A stretch of DNA of 64,000 nt from Longimicrobiales bacterium (GTDB lineage: Bacteria > Gemmatimonadota > Gemmatimonadetes > Longimicrobiales > Gaopeijiaceae): assembly GCA_951828585.1 (NCBI GenBank), contig OX639991.1:1644576-1708575 (forward strand), written 5' to 3'. Within the stretch, counting starts at the first letter, position 1. Every line of letters starts with the position of its first letter. The notes under the pieces were generated by a model, which worked only from the letters and a program-made list of their open reading frames with translations, ran no database searches and was not told where the DNA came from. A program made the translations under genes and the position numbers. Of this stretch, positions 2,000 to 43,269 are shown piece by piece.

Positions 2000-3300
2000 T
2001 GTGCCAGCGATCAGGCACCCTTGCGGTGCTCCTGACGACCGTCGCCGTATCAGCGTGTAACCGGGCGCCCCGTGACGGCAGCGATTCCACCGAAGCCCCA
2101 ACCTTCACCGCGTGGGACTCCGCCGGCGTCGAAATCGTCGAGAACCACGCGCCCGAGCACCCCACCGGACAGTTCTGGACCATCGACCCGGAGCCCGAAT
2201 TCGTACTGGGTGGGACCGAGGACCTCAACGCGCTGGCCAACGACTCGGCCCAGCTGATCTGGAGCGTGGTTGGCTTGGCCCGCCTGCCCGACGGCCGCGT
2301 CGCCGTCCTTTCATCCGAGAACAAGCAACTCATGCTCTTCGAACCCTCGGGTGAGCTGTCCCGAATCATCGGCCGGGCAGGCGAAGGCCCGGGCGAGTTC
2401 ACCCGCCCGGAAGAACTCCAGTACCTGCCGCCCGACACGCTGGTCGTGTGGGACTACCATATGACCTCGATCGACTACTTCGATACCGCCGGCACGCTGT
2501 TGAAAGAACGATCCGTCGACTTCCTGCGGCTAAGAGAGCACGACCTCTGGAGCGAGGGGTTCCGGTTCCCCCTGAGCGACGGATCGTTCGTCTCGTCGAA
2601 GAAGGTCCAGGAAGCCGAATCCGAGCCCGCATGGAGCGACTGTTCGCCGACGCGGCGCTGGATGATGCGGGGTTCGGAAACTGGTGAGCTCGTCGGTGGG
2701 CCGCAGGAGTCCGAGCATCGCGCAGACGAATTCATCAGAGTCGACACTGCGTACGGGGCCGACTCGTTCGCGTGCCCCAGGTTCATCGCGGCGGGAGGCG
2801 ATCCTCCTTCGATCTACGTGAGCCGCAGCGACAGAAACGAGATCCATCAGTTTTCGCCCGACGGGGTCCTGCTCAGGATCATTCGGCGCACGACCGATCC
2901 GCTCCGCGTAACCGACAAAGCACGGAGGGCATGGGAAGATCGGAATGCCAAATACTATGAGTCGCTCGGCTTCTCGCTTCCGGAGGGCGAACTCGAGGCG
3001 ATGCGGAGCGTGGAGACCTATCCGCCGATCGACGGCCTCATGGTGGATGCGGAGGGGTATCTGTGGGTCAGCGAGTATTCCGACTCGGAGACGTGGGCGC
3101 CGGACCAGTGGAGCATCTTCGGTCCGGACGGGCGATGGCTGGGTGTGCTGCCCAAGGACGTGCCGGTGTTCTTCCTGTGCCGCGACTTTCAATTCGTGTG
3201 CTGGATCGACAGGGACTTCCTGCTGGTCGTGGGGCGCGACGAGTTCGATGCCGAACGCGTCGTGGCCTACCGCATTCGCCGGGACAGCTCCAACCTGTAA
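1996..3300 (+). CDS. 6-bladed beta-propeller lipoprotein (tandem paralogue)
   Basis: Lipoprotein of 434 aa. The start codon overlaps the stop of the preceding gene (ATGATG at 1996-2001). The signal peptide ends in Val-Ser-Ala-Cys. Residues about 40-175 are almost identical to the upstream gene (same His-Ala-Pro-Glu-His and Gly-Glu-Gly-Pro-Gly-Glu-Phe segments), while the central and C-terminal parts have diverged, with conserved Trp-Ser-(Val/Ile)-Phe near the end. This suggests a tandem duplication followed by uneven divergence or gene conversion of the N-terminal half. Function unknown, probably periplasmic. Confidence 0.8.
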   Translation: MMCQRSGTLAVLLTTVAVSACNRAPRDGSDSTEAPTFTAWDSAGVEIVENHAPEHPTGQFWTIDPEPEFVLGGTEDLNALANDSAQLIWSVVGLARLPDGRVAVLSSENKQLMLFEPSGELSRIIGRAGEGPGEFTRPEELQYLPPDTLVVWDYHMTSIDYFDTAGTLLKERSVDFLRLREHDLWSEGFRFPLSDGSFVSSKKVQEAESEPAWSDCSPTRRWMMRGSETGELVGGPQESEHRADEFIRVDTAYGADSFACPRFIAAGGDPPSIYVSRSDRNEIHQFSPDGVLLRIIRRTTDPLRVTDKARRAWEDRNAKYYESLGFSLPEGELEAMRSVETYPPIDGLMVDAEGYLWVSEYSDSETWAPDQWSIFGPDGRWLGVLPKDVPVFFLCRDFQFVCWIDRDFLLVVGRDEFDAERVVAYRIRRDSSNL

Positions 3301-3306
3301 ACCCCA

Positions 3307-3337
3307 ATTTACCAAATGTCATGTTTGGTATACTTTC
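3307..3337 (+). promoter_or_regulatory. Promoter/operator element, TTTACC-ATGTCATGT type
   Basis: AT-rich block between the propeller pair and the ABC transporter. It contains the inverted repeat ACCAAA/TTTGGT around TGTCATG and a TATACT box at 3329-3334, 63 nt before the transporter start. The 30-base element matches 24 of 30 positions in a block at 12888-12917 and shares TTTAC-A-ATGTCATGT with one at 30524-30540 (opposite strand). Probably an operator or alternative promoter; the factor is unknown. Confidence 0.5.
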
Positions 3338-3396
3338 CGCGTGAGCAGGGGCGAAACCGAGTCCATCCACAGGCGGCGATGCCGGCGACAACCTGA

Positions 3397-5079
3397 ATGA
3401 CCATCCTCGACCAGGAAATCCGCCGCGGCCTCGCCTACATCCTCCCCTACAAAACCCGCCTCGCGGCCATTCTCCTCCTCAACCTCGCGGGCACCGCGCT
3501 CGCCCTCTACGTCCCCTTCCTCACCCGCACCCTCGTCGACGACGCCCTCCTCGGCCAGGACACCTACGCCCTCACACGGGTCGTCGTCCTCTTCACCCTC
3601 GTCACCGCGGCCAGCTTCGTCCTGAACTTCGTCAGCGGGATGCGCTACACGAAGGTCTCGGCCGAGATCCTCTTCGACATGCGCGTGACCGTCTACCGCC
3701 ATCTCCACCGCCTCTCGCCACGATTTTTCGCAAAAACGCCTCTTGGTGAAATAATTTCACGAATTAACAACGATGTGAGCGAAATTCAACGCGTTCTCTC
3801 CGACGCGGCGCTGGCGTGGCTCGGCAACGTGGCCTTCCTGGCGGGAGCGGTGGGGATGCTGCTCTGGCTCGACTGGCGCCTCTTCCTGGCCGCCGCCGCC
3901 CTTCTGCCCCCCGCCATCTGGGCCATCGTGGTTTACCGGCGCCGCCTGGTGGTGCGCGTGCGCGTCATGCGCGAACGGAGCGCGACCATCGGCGCCTTCC
4001 TGATCGAGACGCTGCGCGGCGTGCGCCTGGTGGCCGCGGCGAACGCGGGCGAACGCGAGGCCGGACGCTTCAGCCGCCTCAACGACGCCTTCGTGGCCGC
4101 TCTCATGAAGATGCAGCGGCTGAGCTACCTCGCGGGCGGCCTGCCGGGCATCCTGCTCTCGGCCAGCACGGCGGTGGTGTTCCTCTACGGCGGGTCGCGC
4201 GTGATCGACGGGGCGATGACGCTCGGGACCTTCACCGCCTTCATGGCCTACCAGATCCGCCTCATCGGCCCGGTCCAGGGTCTGATGGGACTCTACACGG
4301 GACTCGGCGCCGCCCGCGTGTCCCTCAAGCGCGTGCACGAGCTGCTCGACGAACCGGTCGAGGTCGAGGATCCCGCGCAGCCCGTCCCCCTCGGCCCCGT
4401 GCGCGGCGAGATCGTCTTCGAGGACGTGTCGTGCGGCCACGGCCGCGGCGCCGACGTGCTGGACGGCTTCGCGCTCACCGTCGCGCCGGGCGAGGTGGTG
4501 GCGCTGGCGGGACGGTCGGGAAGCGGCAAGTCCACCGTCGCCGACCTCCTCGTGCGCCACCTGGACCCCGACCGCGGCCGCGTCCTCCTCGACGGCACCG
4601 ACCTGCGCACCGTCGCCCTGGCCGACCTGCGCGCGCAGGTGGCGGTCGTGGCGCAGGACACCTTCGTCTTCAACACCTCGATCCTGGAGAACGTGCGCTA
4701 CGCGCGGCCCGACGCGGGTCGTGATGCCGTGTCACGGGCCGTGGACCGGGCCGGATTGGGGGACTTTGTCGCGTCGCTTCCGGACGGGCTCGACACGGTG
4801 GTGGGCGAAGAGGGCCGGGCGCTCTCGGCGGGGGAGCGGCAGCGCGTGGCGATCGCGCGGGCGCTGCTGGCCGATCCGGCGGTGCTGGTGCTGGACGAGG
4901 CGACGAGCGCGCTGGACGCGGAGGCGCAGGCCACGGTGGTGTCCGCCTACGCCGAGGTGATGAAGGGGCGGACGACGGTGCTGATTTCGCACCGGGAAGA
5001 GGTGCTCGGATCGGCGGACCGGGTGGTGGTGCTGGAGGGGGGGAGGGGGGCTCCGAAATTGCGACAAAAAAACACCTGA
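3397..5079 (+). CDS. ABC exporter, fused permease and ATPase
   Basis: Half-transporter of 560 aa with an N-terminal type I exporter membrane domain (about five or six helices, residues 20-300) and a C-terminal ATPase. Walker A is GRSGSGKS near residue 372, the signature LSAGERQR near 475, Walker B VLVLDEATSALD near 496, and the H-loop is in Leu-Ile-Ser-His. The family exports lipids, drugs or peptides as homo- or heterodimers in the cytoplasmic membrane. No C39 peptidase domain is present. The gene is followed on the same strand by a subtilisin-like protein, so export of a processed peptide is conceivable but unproven. Confidence 0.85.
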   Translation: MTILDQEIRRGLAYILPYKTRLAAILLLNLAGTALALYVPFLTRTLVDDALLGQDTYALTRVVVLFTLVTAASFVLNFVSGMRYTKVSAEILFDMRVTVYRHLHRLSPRFFAKTPLGEIISRINNDVSEIQRVLSDAALAWLGNVAFLAGAVGMLLWLDWRLFLAAAALLPPAIWAIVVYRRRLVVRVRVMRERSATIGAFLIETLRGVRLVAAANAGEREAGRFSRLNDAFVAALMKMQRLSYLAGGLPGILLSASTAVVFLYGGSRVIDGAMTLGTFTAFMAYQIRLIGPVQGLMGLYTGLGAARVSLKRVHELLDEPVEVEDPAQPVPLGPVRGEIVFEDVSCGHGRGADVLDGFALTVAPGEVVALAGRSGSGKSTVADLLVRHLDPDRGRVLLDGTDLRTVALADLRAQVAVVAQDTFVFNTSILENVRYARPDAGRDAVSRAVDRAGLGDFVASLPDGLDTVVGEEGRALSAGERQRVAIARALLADPAVLVLDEATSALDAEAQATVVSAYAEVMKGRTTVLISHREEVLGSADRVVVLEGGRGAPKLRQKNT

Positions 5080-30523: not shown

Positions 30524-30552
30524 ACATGACATTTTGTAAATCAACGTTTACA
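30524..30552. promoter_or_regulatory. ATGTCATGT-type element plus TGTAAA palindrome
   Basis: ACATGACATTTTGTAAA (30524-30540), the reverse complement of the element seen at 3308 and 12888, overlaps an inverted repeat TGTAAA-TCAACG-TTTACA (30535-30552). It lies 20-48 nt before the N-acyl-D-amino-acid deacylase start (TTG at 30573). Likely operator for that operon. Confidence 0.5.
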
Positions 30553-35460: not shown

Positions 35461-35940
35461 TCACCTCGCGGAAAGAGGCATCCCCTCCACAATGTGCCGC
35501 CGAATAGCCTCCTCCCAATGGACCATGAAGTCCTCGAACCCTTCGCCGAATGCCCGCACGAAGTCGTCCGCATCGGATGAGAGCGATGTCATGCGATACT
35601 TCACCGCCGCGCGGCTTCGTCCATCGCCGTCGGGGATCACCCTGACGTCCACCATGGCGACGTGGTGATCCGGCAGGACATACACGAACGACGCGCGGCC
35701 CGCGGCGGGATCATGGCGCGTCTGGACCCATGTCGCGGTTCCTTCACCCTTGCGGGTCTGGAAGACGGCGCCCTCTCCCACACCGGAGTCGGCCGGATGC
35801 ACGGAATGCGGATCCCAGCCTGCCACCCATCGTCGCTCACCCTCGGCGTTGAAGAGCGGGAACGCATCGGTCGTCGTCAGGGCCATGCGTACCACGCCGG
35901 CTCGCTCGATGTGAACTCGACTGTCCGCTCTGGTTGCCAT
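35461..35940 (-). CDS. SRPBCC-fold protein (START-like)
   Basis: 159 aa from the ATG at 35940. Pattern of the polyketide-cyclase/START superfamily: Val-His-Ile-Glu-Arg-Ala, long strand-rich core with Trp-Val-Ala-Gly-Trp-Asp-Pro, and C-terminal helix. Such proteins bind hydrophobic ligands or act as aromatase/cyclases; no ligand can be named. Single gene, between the HEPN gene and a broken hydrolase. Confidence 0.65.
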   Translation of the reverse strand: MATRADSRVHIERAGVVRMALTTTDAFPLFNAEGERRWVAGWDPHSVHPADSGVGEGAVFQTRKGEGTATWVQTRHDPAAGRASFVYVLPDHHVAMVDVRVIPDGDGRSRAAVKYRMTSLSSDADDFVRAFGEGFEDFMVHWEEAIRRHIVEGMPLSAR

Positions 35941-36042
35941 GGTCGCTTCCGGGGTAGAATGCTGTGGCTGGAATCCCGTGGAGGAACCCAACTTGCAACT
36001 GTAAAGACAACCTTACATTATGTCAACGCCAGTATACATTCT

Positions 36043-36842
36043 GTCACTCCAATAGCTCCCGGTGGACGCACGGAGCACGCCTACTTCAACGCCACAATGG
36101 AGCACATCGCCCACGCCGATGGCGCGCCCGGCAACTACGACGCGGTGACCAGCATCCGGTCGCAGCGCTTCTTCGACACGCCGCGCGAGGCCGATGGTCT
36201 GACTCCCGGGGACATGACCTGGGGACTGGTGCCGGATATCGTCGAGTCCGGGGTGGCGATCTACAACTTCGCGGGTTGGTGGGACGCTTTCGCGCGGAGT
36301 TCCTTCGAGGTCTTCGCGACGCTCGAGGGGACGAATCCGTCGCGGATCATCGCGTGGCCGATGTACCACCAGGGGATTTCGCCGGCCGCGTCCAAGGGCA
36401 TCGGCGCGGACCCGACCCGCGAGACGTCTATACGCCGACCTACCTGGGCGAGGCGCTGCGCTGGTACGACCGCTGGCTGAAGGACATCCGCAACGGCATC
36501 GACCAGGAGCCGCCGGTCCACATCTTCGTCCACAACGAGGGCTGGCGGGCAGAGGAGACGTGGCCGCTGAAGCGGGAAGTGCGGTTGCGGTTCCATCTGG
36601 GCGACAACGGCGTGCTCGACCGGGAGCCCGGCAGTCCCGGTACCGACGAATACACCGCCGACTTCACCCACGACGCCTCGTTCGGTCCGCCGCTCGACGC
36701 TTCCCAGATCTCGGTCGCGAACGCCATGAAGGGGAGGGCGCCCTTCAATGCGGGGTCGATCGGCCATTCGCGCCAGCAGATGTTCGGCGTGCGGGGGAAT
36801 GAGGAGGGGTCGTATGTGGAGTTGCCGGTGATTCCGCGGTAG
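36043..36842 (+). pseudogene. CocE/NonD-type hydrolase remnant, frameshifted
   Basis: Two frames read as one protein: from 36043 to about 36415 (Arg-Phe-Phe-Asp-Thr-Pro, Asn-Phe-Ala-Gly-Trp-Trp-Asp) and from about 36425 to 36842 (Trp-Tyr-Asp-Arg-Trp-Leu-Lys-Asp-Ile, ending Leu-Pro-Val-Ile-Pro-Arg). The shift is at 36410-36425. The N-terminal ~200 residues, with the catalytic Ser of the X-Pro peptidase/cocaine-esterase family, are missing, as is the C-terminal jelly-roll beyond the stop. Not functional. Confidence 0.7.
36815..36842 (+). repeat. 28-bp direct repeat, copy 1
   Basis: TGTGGAGTTGCCGGTGATTC followed by CGCGGTAG. It forms the last codons of the hydrolase remnant. Matches 26 of 28 bases at 37918-37945. 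The two copies bracket the minus-strand gene 36862-37899. Confidence 0.6.
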
Positions 36843-39682: not shown

Positions 39683-39727
39683 GGCGGAAGGTGGTCGGCG
39701 AGGCGGCCACACAATCGCGAATTGTAA

Positions 39728-39756
39728 ACTCCAGGTGACATTAAGTCATGTGGAGT
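39728..39756. other. Imperfect stem-loop immediately upstream of the intron
   Basis: ACTCCAGGTGAC (39728-39739), 5-nt loop ATTAA, GTCATGTGGAGT (39745-39756): arms complementary except for two positions. It is followed by TTGTCA and then GTGCG at 39762. Group IIC introns typically insert a few bases after a stem-loop of this sort. It may also be the apt terminator. Confidence 0.6.
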
Positions 39757-39993
39757 TGTCAGTGCGCCGTGGAAAGGCGCGCTTTCCTGGTGGGTGCGAA
39801 TCCCACCCAGCTATCGCTCCGGCTGGTAGCGGCCAGAGCGGTTCATGGAGGTAACGACATGGGCTGAAGCACTTTGGCGAGACGGGCCGCCTTGGGCGGC
39901 TCAGCGACCATGCAGGCCGGAACGCGAGTGAACGCCGAGCAGGCCTCGAAACACATAACGGAACCTGCCAACGACGTTGAGACACTTTCCGAT

Positions 39994-41031
39994 TCAGTTT
40001 AGTGAGCCCTCCTTTCCCCCGTTGGCCGGCTCTGCTCCATCGGCTGCCGTGACGGGGAGTGCGCGGTTGATCCAGACCTCCACCGGGAGTTCCGCAGCTC
40101 TCGGCGGGCCACCGACAAAGCGGTCGGGCCGGGCGGCGTAGGCCGCAGCCAGCACCTTCTGTCTGTGCTCGATGACCGCGGGGGCGCGGCCGAGATGGAC
40201 CTGTTCCGGCGTCAGCAAGCCGATGCCGCCGTGCCGGTGCTCGGTGTTGTACCACTGGAAGAACTCCCGGCAGAAGTCCTTCGCCTCCTCGATGTTGCCG
40301 AAGCGACCCGGGAAGCCCGGATGGTACTTGACGGTCTTGAAGTGCGCCTCCGAGTAAGGGTTGTCGTTCGAGACCCTGGGGCGGCCCAGCGACTGGGTGA
40401 CGCCCAGGTCGGCCAGGAGCTGCGCCGTGCACTTGGCCGTCATGGGAGATCCCCGGTCCGAGTGCAGCGTGAGCACCCGGGGCTGCACACCGTGCTTGAG
40501 GCATGTCTCCCCGATCAAGTGTCCGGCCAAGCCGGCGGTCTTGCGCTCCGCCACCATCCATCCGGCGGCGTAGCGGCTGTAGATGTCCAGGATCACGTAC
40601 AGATAGAAGTACTGCCACTTCTCCGGCCCCAGCAGCCGGGTGATGTCCCAGGACCACACCTCGTTGGGTGCCCTGGCCACCACCTCGGGCTTCGGGTGGT
40701 TGGGATGGCTACGTTGCGCCCGGCGCTCGCGGACCGCCTGATTCTCGGCCAGGACGCGGTACATCGTCCGCTCCGAACACAGATAGACGCCCTCGTCCAG
40801 CAGCGTCGCGTACACTTCCGCGGGAGCACGGTCCGCGAAGCGCGGCGAGCACAGCACACCAAAGACCCCCGCCCGCTCCGTCGCGTCCAGGGCCCGGGCA
40901 GGAGCCGGCCGGGGCTGCCACTGCCCGGTCTTCGGCCTCCGGCGACGGTAGAACGTGGCGCGCGCAACCCCGAGGGCTTTGCACGCCGCGCGTACGCCCA
41001 CGTGCCCGGCCAAGCCTCTGGCCGCGCTCAA
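39994..41031 (-). CDS. IS3-family transposase OrfB (DDE integrase)
   Basis: 345 aa. Catalytic Asp in Trp-Ser-Trp-Asp-Ile-Thr-Arg-Leu-Leu, second Asp in Leu-His-Ser-Asp-Arg-Gly-Ser-Pro, Glu in Ser-Asn-Asp-Asn-Pro-Tyr-Ser-Glu-Ala-His-Phe-Lys-Thr. N-terminal helix-turn-helix. ATG overlaps the end of OrfA by 4 nt; in this family a -1 frameshift often makes an OrfAB fusion. It cuts and joins DNA ends during transposition. Confidence 0.9.
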   Translation of the reverse strand: MSAARGLAGHVGVRAACKALGVARATFYRRRRPKTGQWQPRPAPARALDATERAGVFGVLCSPRFADRAPAEVYATLLDEGVYLCSERTMYRVLAENQAVRERRAQRSHPNHPKPEVVARAPNEVWSWDITRLLGPEKWQYFYLYVILDIYSRYAAGWMVAERKTAGLAGHLIGETCLKHGVQPRVLTLHSDRGSPMTAKCTAQLLADLGVTQSLGRPRVSNDNPYSEAHFKTVKYHPGFPGRFGNIEEAKDFCREFFQWYNTEHRHGGIGLLTPEQVHLGRAPAVIEHRQKVLAAAYAARPDRFVGGPPRAAELPVEVWINRALPVTAADGAEPANGGKEGSLN

Positions 41032-41477
41032 GAGCGCTTCCCGTCCCCGGGGCTCACACCCAGCAGCCCCGCAACTTTTCCCTGGACATCGATGATGATG
41101 CGCGCCTTGCGAAGTTCCTCGCGCAACCGCGCGTTCTCCCGCTCCAGCTTCCGCACCCTCTTCGCCTCACGCTTCCCGCCGGACGGCCTCGGGCCTCGCT
41201 TCTTCGCCAGCCTCCGCAGCGACCCTTCCCGCGCCGCCTTCCGCCACGACGACAAGTGCGAACTATACAGTCCTTCGCGCCGAAGCAGCTCTCCGATCTC
41301 GCCCGGTGTATCGCAGGCGTCCGCCTTCTCCACGATCGAAAGCTTGTACGCCGCCGTGAACCGCCGCCGCGTCGTCTTCGCCGCAACCTCCGGATCCGGC
41401 CGGGCTGCCGCGCTTCGCTTGCCCTCCCCCGTGGAGAGGGGCGTTCCGTTCACCTTCATTCCTTCTCCTCGTGCCAT
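41028..41477 (-). CDS. IS3-family transposase OrfA (HTH protein)
   Basis: 149 aa. Helix-turn-helix region (Arg-Arg-Phe-Thr-Ala-Ala-Tyr-Lys-Leu-Ser-Ile-Val, then Ser-Ser-His-Leu-Ser-Ser-Trp-Arg-Lys) plus a Lys/Arg-rich part and a leucine-rich coiled segment near the end. It binds the inverted repeats and regulates transposition with OrfB. Confidence 0.85.
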   Translation of the reverse strand: MARGEGMKVNGTPLSTGEGKRSAAARPDPEVAAKTTRRRFTAAYKLSIVEKADACDTPGEIGELLRREGLYSSHLSSWRKAAREGSLRRLAKKRGPRPSGGKREAKRVRKLERENARLREELRKARIIIDVQGKVAGLLGVSPGDGKRS

Positions 41478-42056
41478 CGTTCAACTCTCTGCCTCGCCCT
41501 ACTCTAATCTCTTTCTCCTCTCGTGTCTCGCGTGTGTTGGCAGAGAGGGTAATGCGGAAGCCGACCCTTCTGTCAATAGGGGAAGGCCGTCGGTCGGCCG
41601 GGATGCCCGTCGAGGAAAGGGGCCTCAGGTGTGGAGGGATGACGGAGGAGCGAAAGCCTGCGGGAGTGGCTTTGCCTACGAACCCCGCGTGAAGGGGCGG
41701 AGAGTTCCGAAGCATCACATGCGTAAGCGAAGGGGCCGGGCCGAATGGAGGCTCGGTGCCGCCGGGGCGTGAACAGGCCCGGCGGCGCGACGGCGAGGGA
41801 CACCGCGCGGGTGAAGCCGTGCAGCCTCTGGCAGCCGGAGGAACGCAAGCCACCGGCACCGTGAGTGTGACCCCGAACCGGTGTTCCGCGTGCGAGTGGC
41901 ATGATCCCACTGGAGAGCCACATAACGGGAAATCCGCACGTCCGGTTCGGAGGGCAGGGGGTGGAAACGGACCTACGGGAGCCGGACTGAGCACCGCCGC
42001 GAAAGCGAGTGGAATTGACGCACCGGACCCTAAGGGCACCGCGCCACCCCCTGACC

Positions 42057-43269
42057 CTACTCGTGGGAATTGCGACCGGATCTTGGCGGAGGATTCCCGG
42101 CGCGGATCCGTGCCGCGCGCAACTGAGCCAGAGGGACCGGCGGCCCACGCCAGACGACGCCACGGATGATGGTGAGGAGCGCGGAGCGCCAGATCGTGTA
42201 CACGATGACGAGGACGGCGGCCGGGAAGGGAATCGCGCTCCACCAGGGGTAGGAATCATCCCGCGAGACGGTGCCGGCGACCCCCCAGTAGATGAGCGGG
42301 CAGGCCGCGAAGAGGGCGCCGGCCAGAAACATGGCCGCTCGACAGAAGCAGCGGCGCCATCACGAGCGGGGCGACGGCCAGCCAGGTGATGGTGGCGGTG
42401 GTGCCCGCAGCCATGAACAGGTTGTAGTCCAGGGCGGCGAAGGAGTTCTTCTCAAGTCCTCGAATGAAGTCCCCCAGGGAATGGTACCAGGGACACTCGA
42501 AAAGCGCCTTTCCCTCGAGGAAGTCGGATCGCATTCCCGACTTCTTCACGGCCTGGCCCAGCCGGAGATCCTCGTCGGGCCGGAGTGCAACACGCTCGTG
42601 CCCCCCGAGCGCACGGTACGAGTCGGCGCGCATGATCGTGTAGGAGCCGATTCCGAAGAAGGCGGAACTCCGGGGATCCTTCACCTTCCAGAGCTGCAGC
42701 CTGGCGCCGATGAAGAGACGCGACACGATCGTGCAGACCTGGAGCATGGTGCCGGTGACGGCGAGGCGGGGCGCGGCGGCGAGGTGATCGAGGCGCTCCC
42801 GGACGAGATGGCGCACGCCGTACGCCGCGGCATCGGGGGCGAAGGTCACGTCGGCGTCGGTGAAGAGAAGGATCTCGCCGGTGGCCGCGTCGGGGCCGCG
42901 CTGGGCCGCGTGAGGCTTGCCGAACCACCCGGGCGGGAGTTCGTCGATGTGCAGGACGGTGAGGCGTGGGTCGCCAGTGCCGAGCCGTTCGGCGATCTCA
43001 CCGGTGTGGTCGGAGGAGCGGTCGTTGACGTAGATGACTTCGTAGTCGGGGTAGCGTAGCGCGAGGAGGGACCGGAGGGCCGGTTCCATGGAGCGCTCCT
43101 CGTTGTGCGCGGTGACGATGATGGAGAGGCGGGGGGGTGGGGGGTCGTCGGGGTGGGGTGGGGCGGCCTGGTCGAGCCGGGGGATCAGGTGGCGGCCGAG
43201 TATGGTGGTGGTCGCGAGGGCGAGCCAGATGGCGACGGTGAGGGCGGCGAGGGCGAGGGGGAGGGTCAT
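42057..43269 (-). pseudogene. Family 2 glycosyltransferase, frameshifted near its C-terminus
   Basis: The first frame (43269 to 42256) has an N-terminal membrane helix, Ile-Ile-Val-Thr-Ala-His-Asn-Glu-Glu, acceptor motif Thr-Asp-Ala-Asp-Val near 138 and Arg-Pro-Asp-Glu-Asp-Leu-Arg-Leu-Gly near 235. It ends in unrelated residues after Ser-Gly-His-Val. A second frame from 42332 gives membrane helices and Trp-Arg-Gly-Pro-Pro-Val-Pro-Leu-Ala-Gln-Leu-Arg, the normal end of this family. The shift lies at 42326-42332. The stop (42057-42059) falls in the last bases of the intron. Product would be a membrane-anchored sugar transferase if intact. Confidence 0.75.

Follow-up and report, generated by a model that had tools for sequence, protein, structure and literature searches.

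A decayed ORF-less group II intron behind a repeated host palindrome in a Longimicrobiales bacterium

The intron and its interruptions

The window, analysed here in silico, is a stretch of 64,000 nucleotides from a Longimicrobiales bacterium. It carries a group II intron that lies behind a tandem pair of 18-bp palindromes (TGTMAA-N6-TTKACA) and is interrupted by an IS3-family element. The features are as follows.

39723..39740, + strand: host palindrome 1, TGTAAACTCCAGGTGACA, with 11/12 specified bases of TGTMAANNNNNNTTKACA
39744..39761, + strand: host palindrome 2, AGTCATGTGGAGTTGTCA, 9/12, spaced 21 bp from palindrome 1; the intron is inserted at its 3' edge
39762-42060, + strand: group II intron, 5' end GTGCG, 3' end ..CCTGACCCTAC
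39762..39958, + strand: 5' portion of the intron, covering domain I between GTGCG and the EBS2 loop, by the RF02003 match (75.8 bits); own-genome copies 90-99% identical
39952..39956, + strand: EBS2 CACAT, pairing exactly with ATGTG of the 5' exon
39956-39958 and 41550-41552: TAA target-site duplication; the uninterrupted sister copy L020 reads CACATAATGCGG
39959..41549, - strand: IS3-family element in the EBS2 loop, by comparison with L020 and IS3 transposase matches
39994..41031, - strand: IS3 OrfB, integrase core (NF033516, 182 bits; PF00665)
41028..41477, - strand: IS3 OrfA, helix-turn-helix (PF01527)
41571..41577, + strand: EBS1 TGTCAAT, pairing, apart from one mismatch, with GTTGTCA of the 5' exon
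41603..41604, + strand: approximate point of a 186-nt deletion that takes out EBS3, relative to L019 and RT-encoding copies
41605..41912, + strand: domain-IV linker of ORF-less type, ~300 nt, also found in three other genomes (94, 96 and 78%)
41913..41948, + strand: domain 5, broken, GAGAGC-CACATAACGGGAAATCCGCACGTCCGGTTC, 5' arm replaced (RF00029, 22.7 bits)
41919..41928, + strand: presumed scar CACATAACGG, the same sequence as the right RIT end in domain 5 of sister copy L017 (..TTCCACATAACGGGAAATCC)
41949..42060, + strand: domain 6, with a 13-bp basal stem, one bulged A and a structured extension at about 41965-42043

A covariance-model search matched positions 39788-39927 to the Rfam model group-II-D1D4-4 (RF02003) with 75.8 bits (E 8e-15; cut-off 49 bits), so the conserved sequence and structure of the domain I-IV core are present, as are a domain 6 with a bulged branch A and ends of the form GUGYG..AY. 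No reverse transcriptase (RT) is encoded in the intron, 39762-42060. The IS3 element has the OrfA/OrfB transposase, the imperfect inverted ends (CTGCCAAC..GAGACAC) and the 3-4 bp duplication of its family, here an exact TAA when compared with the uninterrupted copy. The original prediction, made from the sequence alone, had proposed a group II intron that starts with GTGCG, lacks a reverse transcriptase and contains an IS3 element, and all of this was confirmed; the start is at 39762. It had given the span as 39728-42064, which does contain the intron but takes in part of the upstream palindromes.

The predicted domain-5 hairpin was correctly placed, but it is not intact. In the window, domain 5 reads GAGAGC-CACATAACGGGAAATCC in place of GAGAGCTGGATGCGGGAAATCC; its lower helix is open, with a fold of -8.3 kcal/mol versus -19.3 kcal/mol in a sister copy, and it scores 22.7 bits with RF00029 versus 46 bits in the sisters, for a cut-off of 40 bits. 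The hairpin is intact in the homologous copies L019 and L020. The window copy is therefore a decayed group II member by descent, not a complete one. The 186-nt deletion, which is common to the window copy, L017, L018 and L020, probably also removes the rest of domain I and domains II and III, judging from the domain order. Splicing had been expected to depend on whether the insertion is tolerated in domain I. The insertion does lie in domain I, at the EBS2 loop, but it does not decide the fate of splicing: with domain 5 broken and about 186 nt including EBS3 deleted, IS3 is not the main obstacle, and the window copy has probably lost the ability to splice. A reading of the domain-IV linker as a decayed reverse transcriptase was rejected.

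The domain-6 pairing with a bulged A was also as predicted. An extra loop had been noticed in it; 79 extra nucleotides are present, but they are not an oddity of the window copy. An extension of roughly 60-80 nt lies between the domain-6 arms in 47/47 aligned sequences of domains 5 and 6. Its fold in 25 short-form sequences comprises several helices, in which compensatory changes occur (e.g. C-G, A-U and G-C at one pair), and the basal stem has one bulged A. A long domain 6 is also found in seven of eight distant plasmid relatives, which match the same Rfam model and have RTs about 46-52% identical, while that of L136 is shorter. The covarying extension is thus a feature of the lineage. It is located in the branch-point domain and may play a part in splicing. 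Introns of the Bacillus cereus group with a 3' extension of 53-56 nt (PMC3261151) similarly have extra RNA that travels with the intron near its 3' end; here, however, the extra RNA is inside domain 6, between the stem arms, and the 3' boundary stays at the end of domain 6.

Sister copies, exon pairing and intron class

The host genome, one 4.47-Mb contig, has seven matches to the RF02003 model, and uninterrupted copies, which the original prediction had proposed to look for, are among them. L020 is 708 nt long and its 3' half is ~98% identical to the window copy, while L019 is 888 nt long. L018 and L021 are truncated. L016 encodes the sole RVT_1 protein found in the genome, a group II RT/maturase of 456 amino acids in which no endonuclease domain was detected. 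An IS110 element lies next to the EBS2 loop in L017 and L018. This element has only two genomic copies (L017 1402-2927 and L018 1685-4708), both at the same position inside an intron copy; the cause may equally be target-specific insertion or copying as part of the intron.

With the RT as query, 55 loci that are 52-90% identical were recovered from MAGs of many phyla, and bin names together with general knowledge suggest a marine sponge origin for several of them. Among the named relatives, a Longimicrobiales bacterium and Candidatus Palauibacter, both Gemmatimonadota, are closest. The closest solved RT is GsI-IIC, a ranking by sequence that we do not take as evidence of class against the evidence from the RNA.

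About 50 introns could be aligned together with their 5' exons, and intron columns were scanned against exon offsets. The scan gave a single strong signal, at EBS1, which covaries with exon positions -5..-1 (z 14.2, 42 sites); in the family test z was 13.7, with as many as 43 distinct sites. All such z values serve as guides, since the permutations leave the relatedness among the sequences in place, and they are supported by the number of distinct sites and by an internal control. The mean EBS1 score is 4.3/5 over the first five positions, and at many sites the pairing extends to 6-7 bp. The EBS2 loop, which follows CCTCGAAAC, pairs with about -17..-9 (z 6.0, 0/5000 permutations, 43 sites), while the control stretch, -24..-18, gave z 1.2. 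For EBS3, in 32/38 cases (z 6.9) the 3' exon begins with a base that pairs with the nucleotide N of the loop CGGGGTA[N]TGG. The family thus reads its targets by base-pairing of EBS1, EBS2 and EBS3, and these pairings can be read in about 40 related sites.

Group IIC introns have an IBS1-EBS1 pairing of 3-4 bp, no evidence of an IBS2-EBS2 pairing and a CGC triad in domain 5 (PMC7923331). The original prediction had assigned the window intron to this class, and that assignment is contradicted. The EBS2 pairing exists, the EBS1 pairing is about 5-7 bp long, EBS3 covaries with the 3' exon, and the triad is AGC, as part of GAGAGC in the sister copies. The stem-loop predicted upstream of the window copy is real and better than chance (shuffle z -5.7), but in the 40 nt upstream of 44 related sites the fold is no better than in shuffles (mean z -0.24). 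The likeness to group IIC introns of the terminator and attC types (PMC4424553, PMC7923331) is limited to the position behind an inverted repeat in the window and the GUGYG..AY ends, while the relatives show no stem-loop requirement. Pairing of EBS1 and EBS2 with the 5' exon and of EBS3 with the first base of the 3' exon makes the family IIB-like, as far as sequence comparison can tell; the window copy, unlike the family, has lost EBS3. Group IIB introns whose IEPs lack an endonuclease (classes D/E/F and relatives; PMC3552965) are close to the present introns in EBS1/EBS2/EBS3 recognition, in the AGC triad and in an IEP that combines RT and maturase domains. The present introns differ from them in the conserved multi-helix extension of domain 6.

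RIT elements in domain 5

Three intron copies in two species hold an RIT (Recombinases In Trio) element in domain 5: L016 (1270-4717), L017 (3316-8408) and the congeneric L165 (1890-2392). In all three the element starts after GAGAGCCGGATGCGGG, at the same nucleotide of domain 5. The element of L016 has three adjacent tyrosine recombinase genes (1443-2681, 2678-3631 and 3624-4619), each matching Phage_integrase and overlapping by 4-8 bp. In this arrangement, in the length of about 3.4 kb and in having inverted ends plus a palindrome, the elements are like those described previously (PMC3414803), whose mobility was described there as unproven; the difference is the location at one fixed nucleotide in domain 5 of a group II intron. 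L016 and L017 hold the interior in opposite orientations, which implies either independent insertion or an inversion between the inverted ends.

The window copy has at this place a domain-5 arm that matches the RIT end. In the simplest history, its domain 5 would once have held an RIT element that was later lost by a deletion at CC. Such use of domain 5 suggests that the most conserved part of the ribozyme, a near-palindrome as DNA, can serve a recombinase element as an integration site.

In 154 genomes of the order, we found no junction between RIT and domain 5 outside two congeneric species, and two matches to the junction in viral contigs were dismissed as chance. Other RIT elements in related genomes sit outside introns. 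None of the literature searched dealt with RIT elements inside group II introns. One RIT end (in L016, L017, L163, L164 and L169) bears a palindromic core close to TTATGTTG-N4-CAACATAA, with arms of 4-6 nt that resemble the target flank in inverted form.

The host palindrome and the spread of the copies

The stem-loop upstream of the intron is part of the two tandem palindromes. Palindrome 2 contains both IBS2, ATGTG (-14..-10), and IBS1, GTTGTCA (-7..-1). The motif TGTMAA-N6-TTKACA has 50 perfect copies in the genome, while a control with the reversed pattern has 0, and it is present in 20/21 congeneric genomes. The seven own intron sites match it at 12, 12, 11, 10, 9, 8 and 5 of 12 bases, so that six of the seven introns abut a palindrome (scores 8-12 of 12), whereas 48 sites of relatives match at 7/12 at most. 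L020, L016 and L019 also have a second palindrome (11, 10 and 9 of 12, respectively), whose start lies 3 nt inside the 3' exon. The ORF-less copies have EBS1 sequences, TGTCAAT or TGGAAAC, that fit palindrome half-sites. The EBS1 of the RT-encoding L016, GCAAGAA, fits TTCTTGC sites of other genomes, but not its own site.

The window feature is, with high probability, a dead member of a family of ORF-less IIB-like introns that is mobilised in trans and has been retargeted to a host repeat. The ORF-less lineage is represented by several copies in the host genome and in related species, the host genome has a single RT-encoding relative, and dependence of ORF-less introns on a related IEP in trans is known in bacteria generally (PMC4424553). 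The present copies are alike in standing beside a related IEP-encoding intron in the genome; they differ in that their EBS sequences depart from those of that intron and fit a repeated host palindrome. Live members would splice in the usual two steps and would reach new sites by reverse splicing directed by EBS1, EBS2 and EBS3, followed by reverse transcription by an L016-type protein. The ORF-less copies would have been moved in trans by the reverse transcriptase of this relative, and changes in EBS1 and EBS2 would have steered them to the repeated palindromes. Introns beside the palindrome would subsequently have been broken by other mobile elements, the window copy being a remnant. This would be a natural example of the apparent retargeting of ORF-less group II introns, from the sites of their parent to a repeated host palindrome.

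One step of this explanation is open to another reading that is compatible with the rest, namely that the deletion-bearing copies were dispersed mainly by gene conversion and not by renewed retrohoming of the deleted form. The form without EBS3 is found at four sites, which simple retrohoming does not explain, and loss of EBS3 should impair splicing. Furthermore, EBS1 and EBS2 fit the current site poorly in L020, L016 and L017, as does EBS1 in L019, which implies gene conversion or loose targeting for part of the history. The copies show conflicting site patterns, and EBS1 of L019, TGGAAAC, exactly fits the L020 site GTTTCCA, while L020 bears another EBS1. On the other hand, most differences between copies can also be arranged as one linear succession, the flanks are unrelated and the ends are exact. 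We regard dispersal mainly by gene conversion as an even bet, and for the spread of the EBS3-less form it is more likely than renewed mobility in trans. It is doubtful that a deleted ORF-less intron without EBS3 and the domains after it could still be mobile in trans, with EBS sequences that evolved toward an operator-like host palindrome, while RIT elements attach at its domain 5.

It is improbable that the targets are recognised as hairpins of palindrome DNA in the manner of group IIC, with EBS matches being secondary. A palindrome immediately precedes six of the seven own copies despite poor EBS pairing in several, and hairpins are found at the window site, L017, L018 and L021, but L020 and L016 have none (z -0.05 and 0.93) and the 44 related sites have none on average. 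Moreover, EBS1 TGTCAAT pairs fully with the L018 site GTTGACA, and EBS2 CACAT with the window site. The original reading, in which a functional group IIC intron without an ORF would recognise a stem-loop and tolerate the insertion in domain I, is hardly credible: the stem-loop 4 nt upstream, the group II model match and the nearness of GsI-IIC agree with it, but it is already contradicted by the covariation of EBS2 with the exon across the family, and the length of EBS1 pairing, the AGC triad, the relatives without stem-loops, the broken domain 5 and the deleted EBS3 also speak against it.

As to the palindrome itself, an origin within the intron was rejected, since the motif is genus-wide and also occurs in genomes with no detected intron. 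A strictly promoter-linked operator was not supported, as 5/18 intergenic sites lie between convergent genes according to rough gene calls. Copies are mostly intergenic and often paired at a spacing of 21 bp; those in the window are at 30535, 36000, 36021 and 39723. The copies at 36000 and 36021 lie inside an apparent hydrolase gene that is split between two frames (35662-36842) and is possibly a pseudogene.
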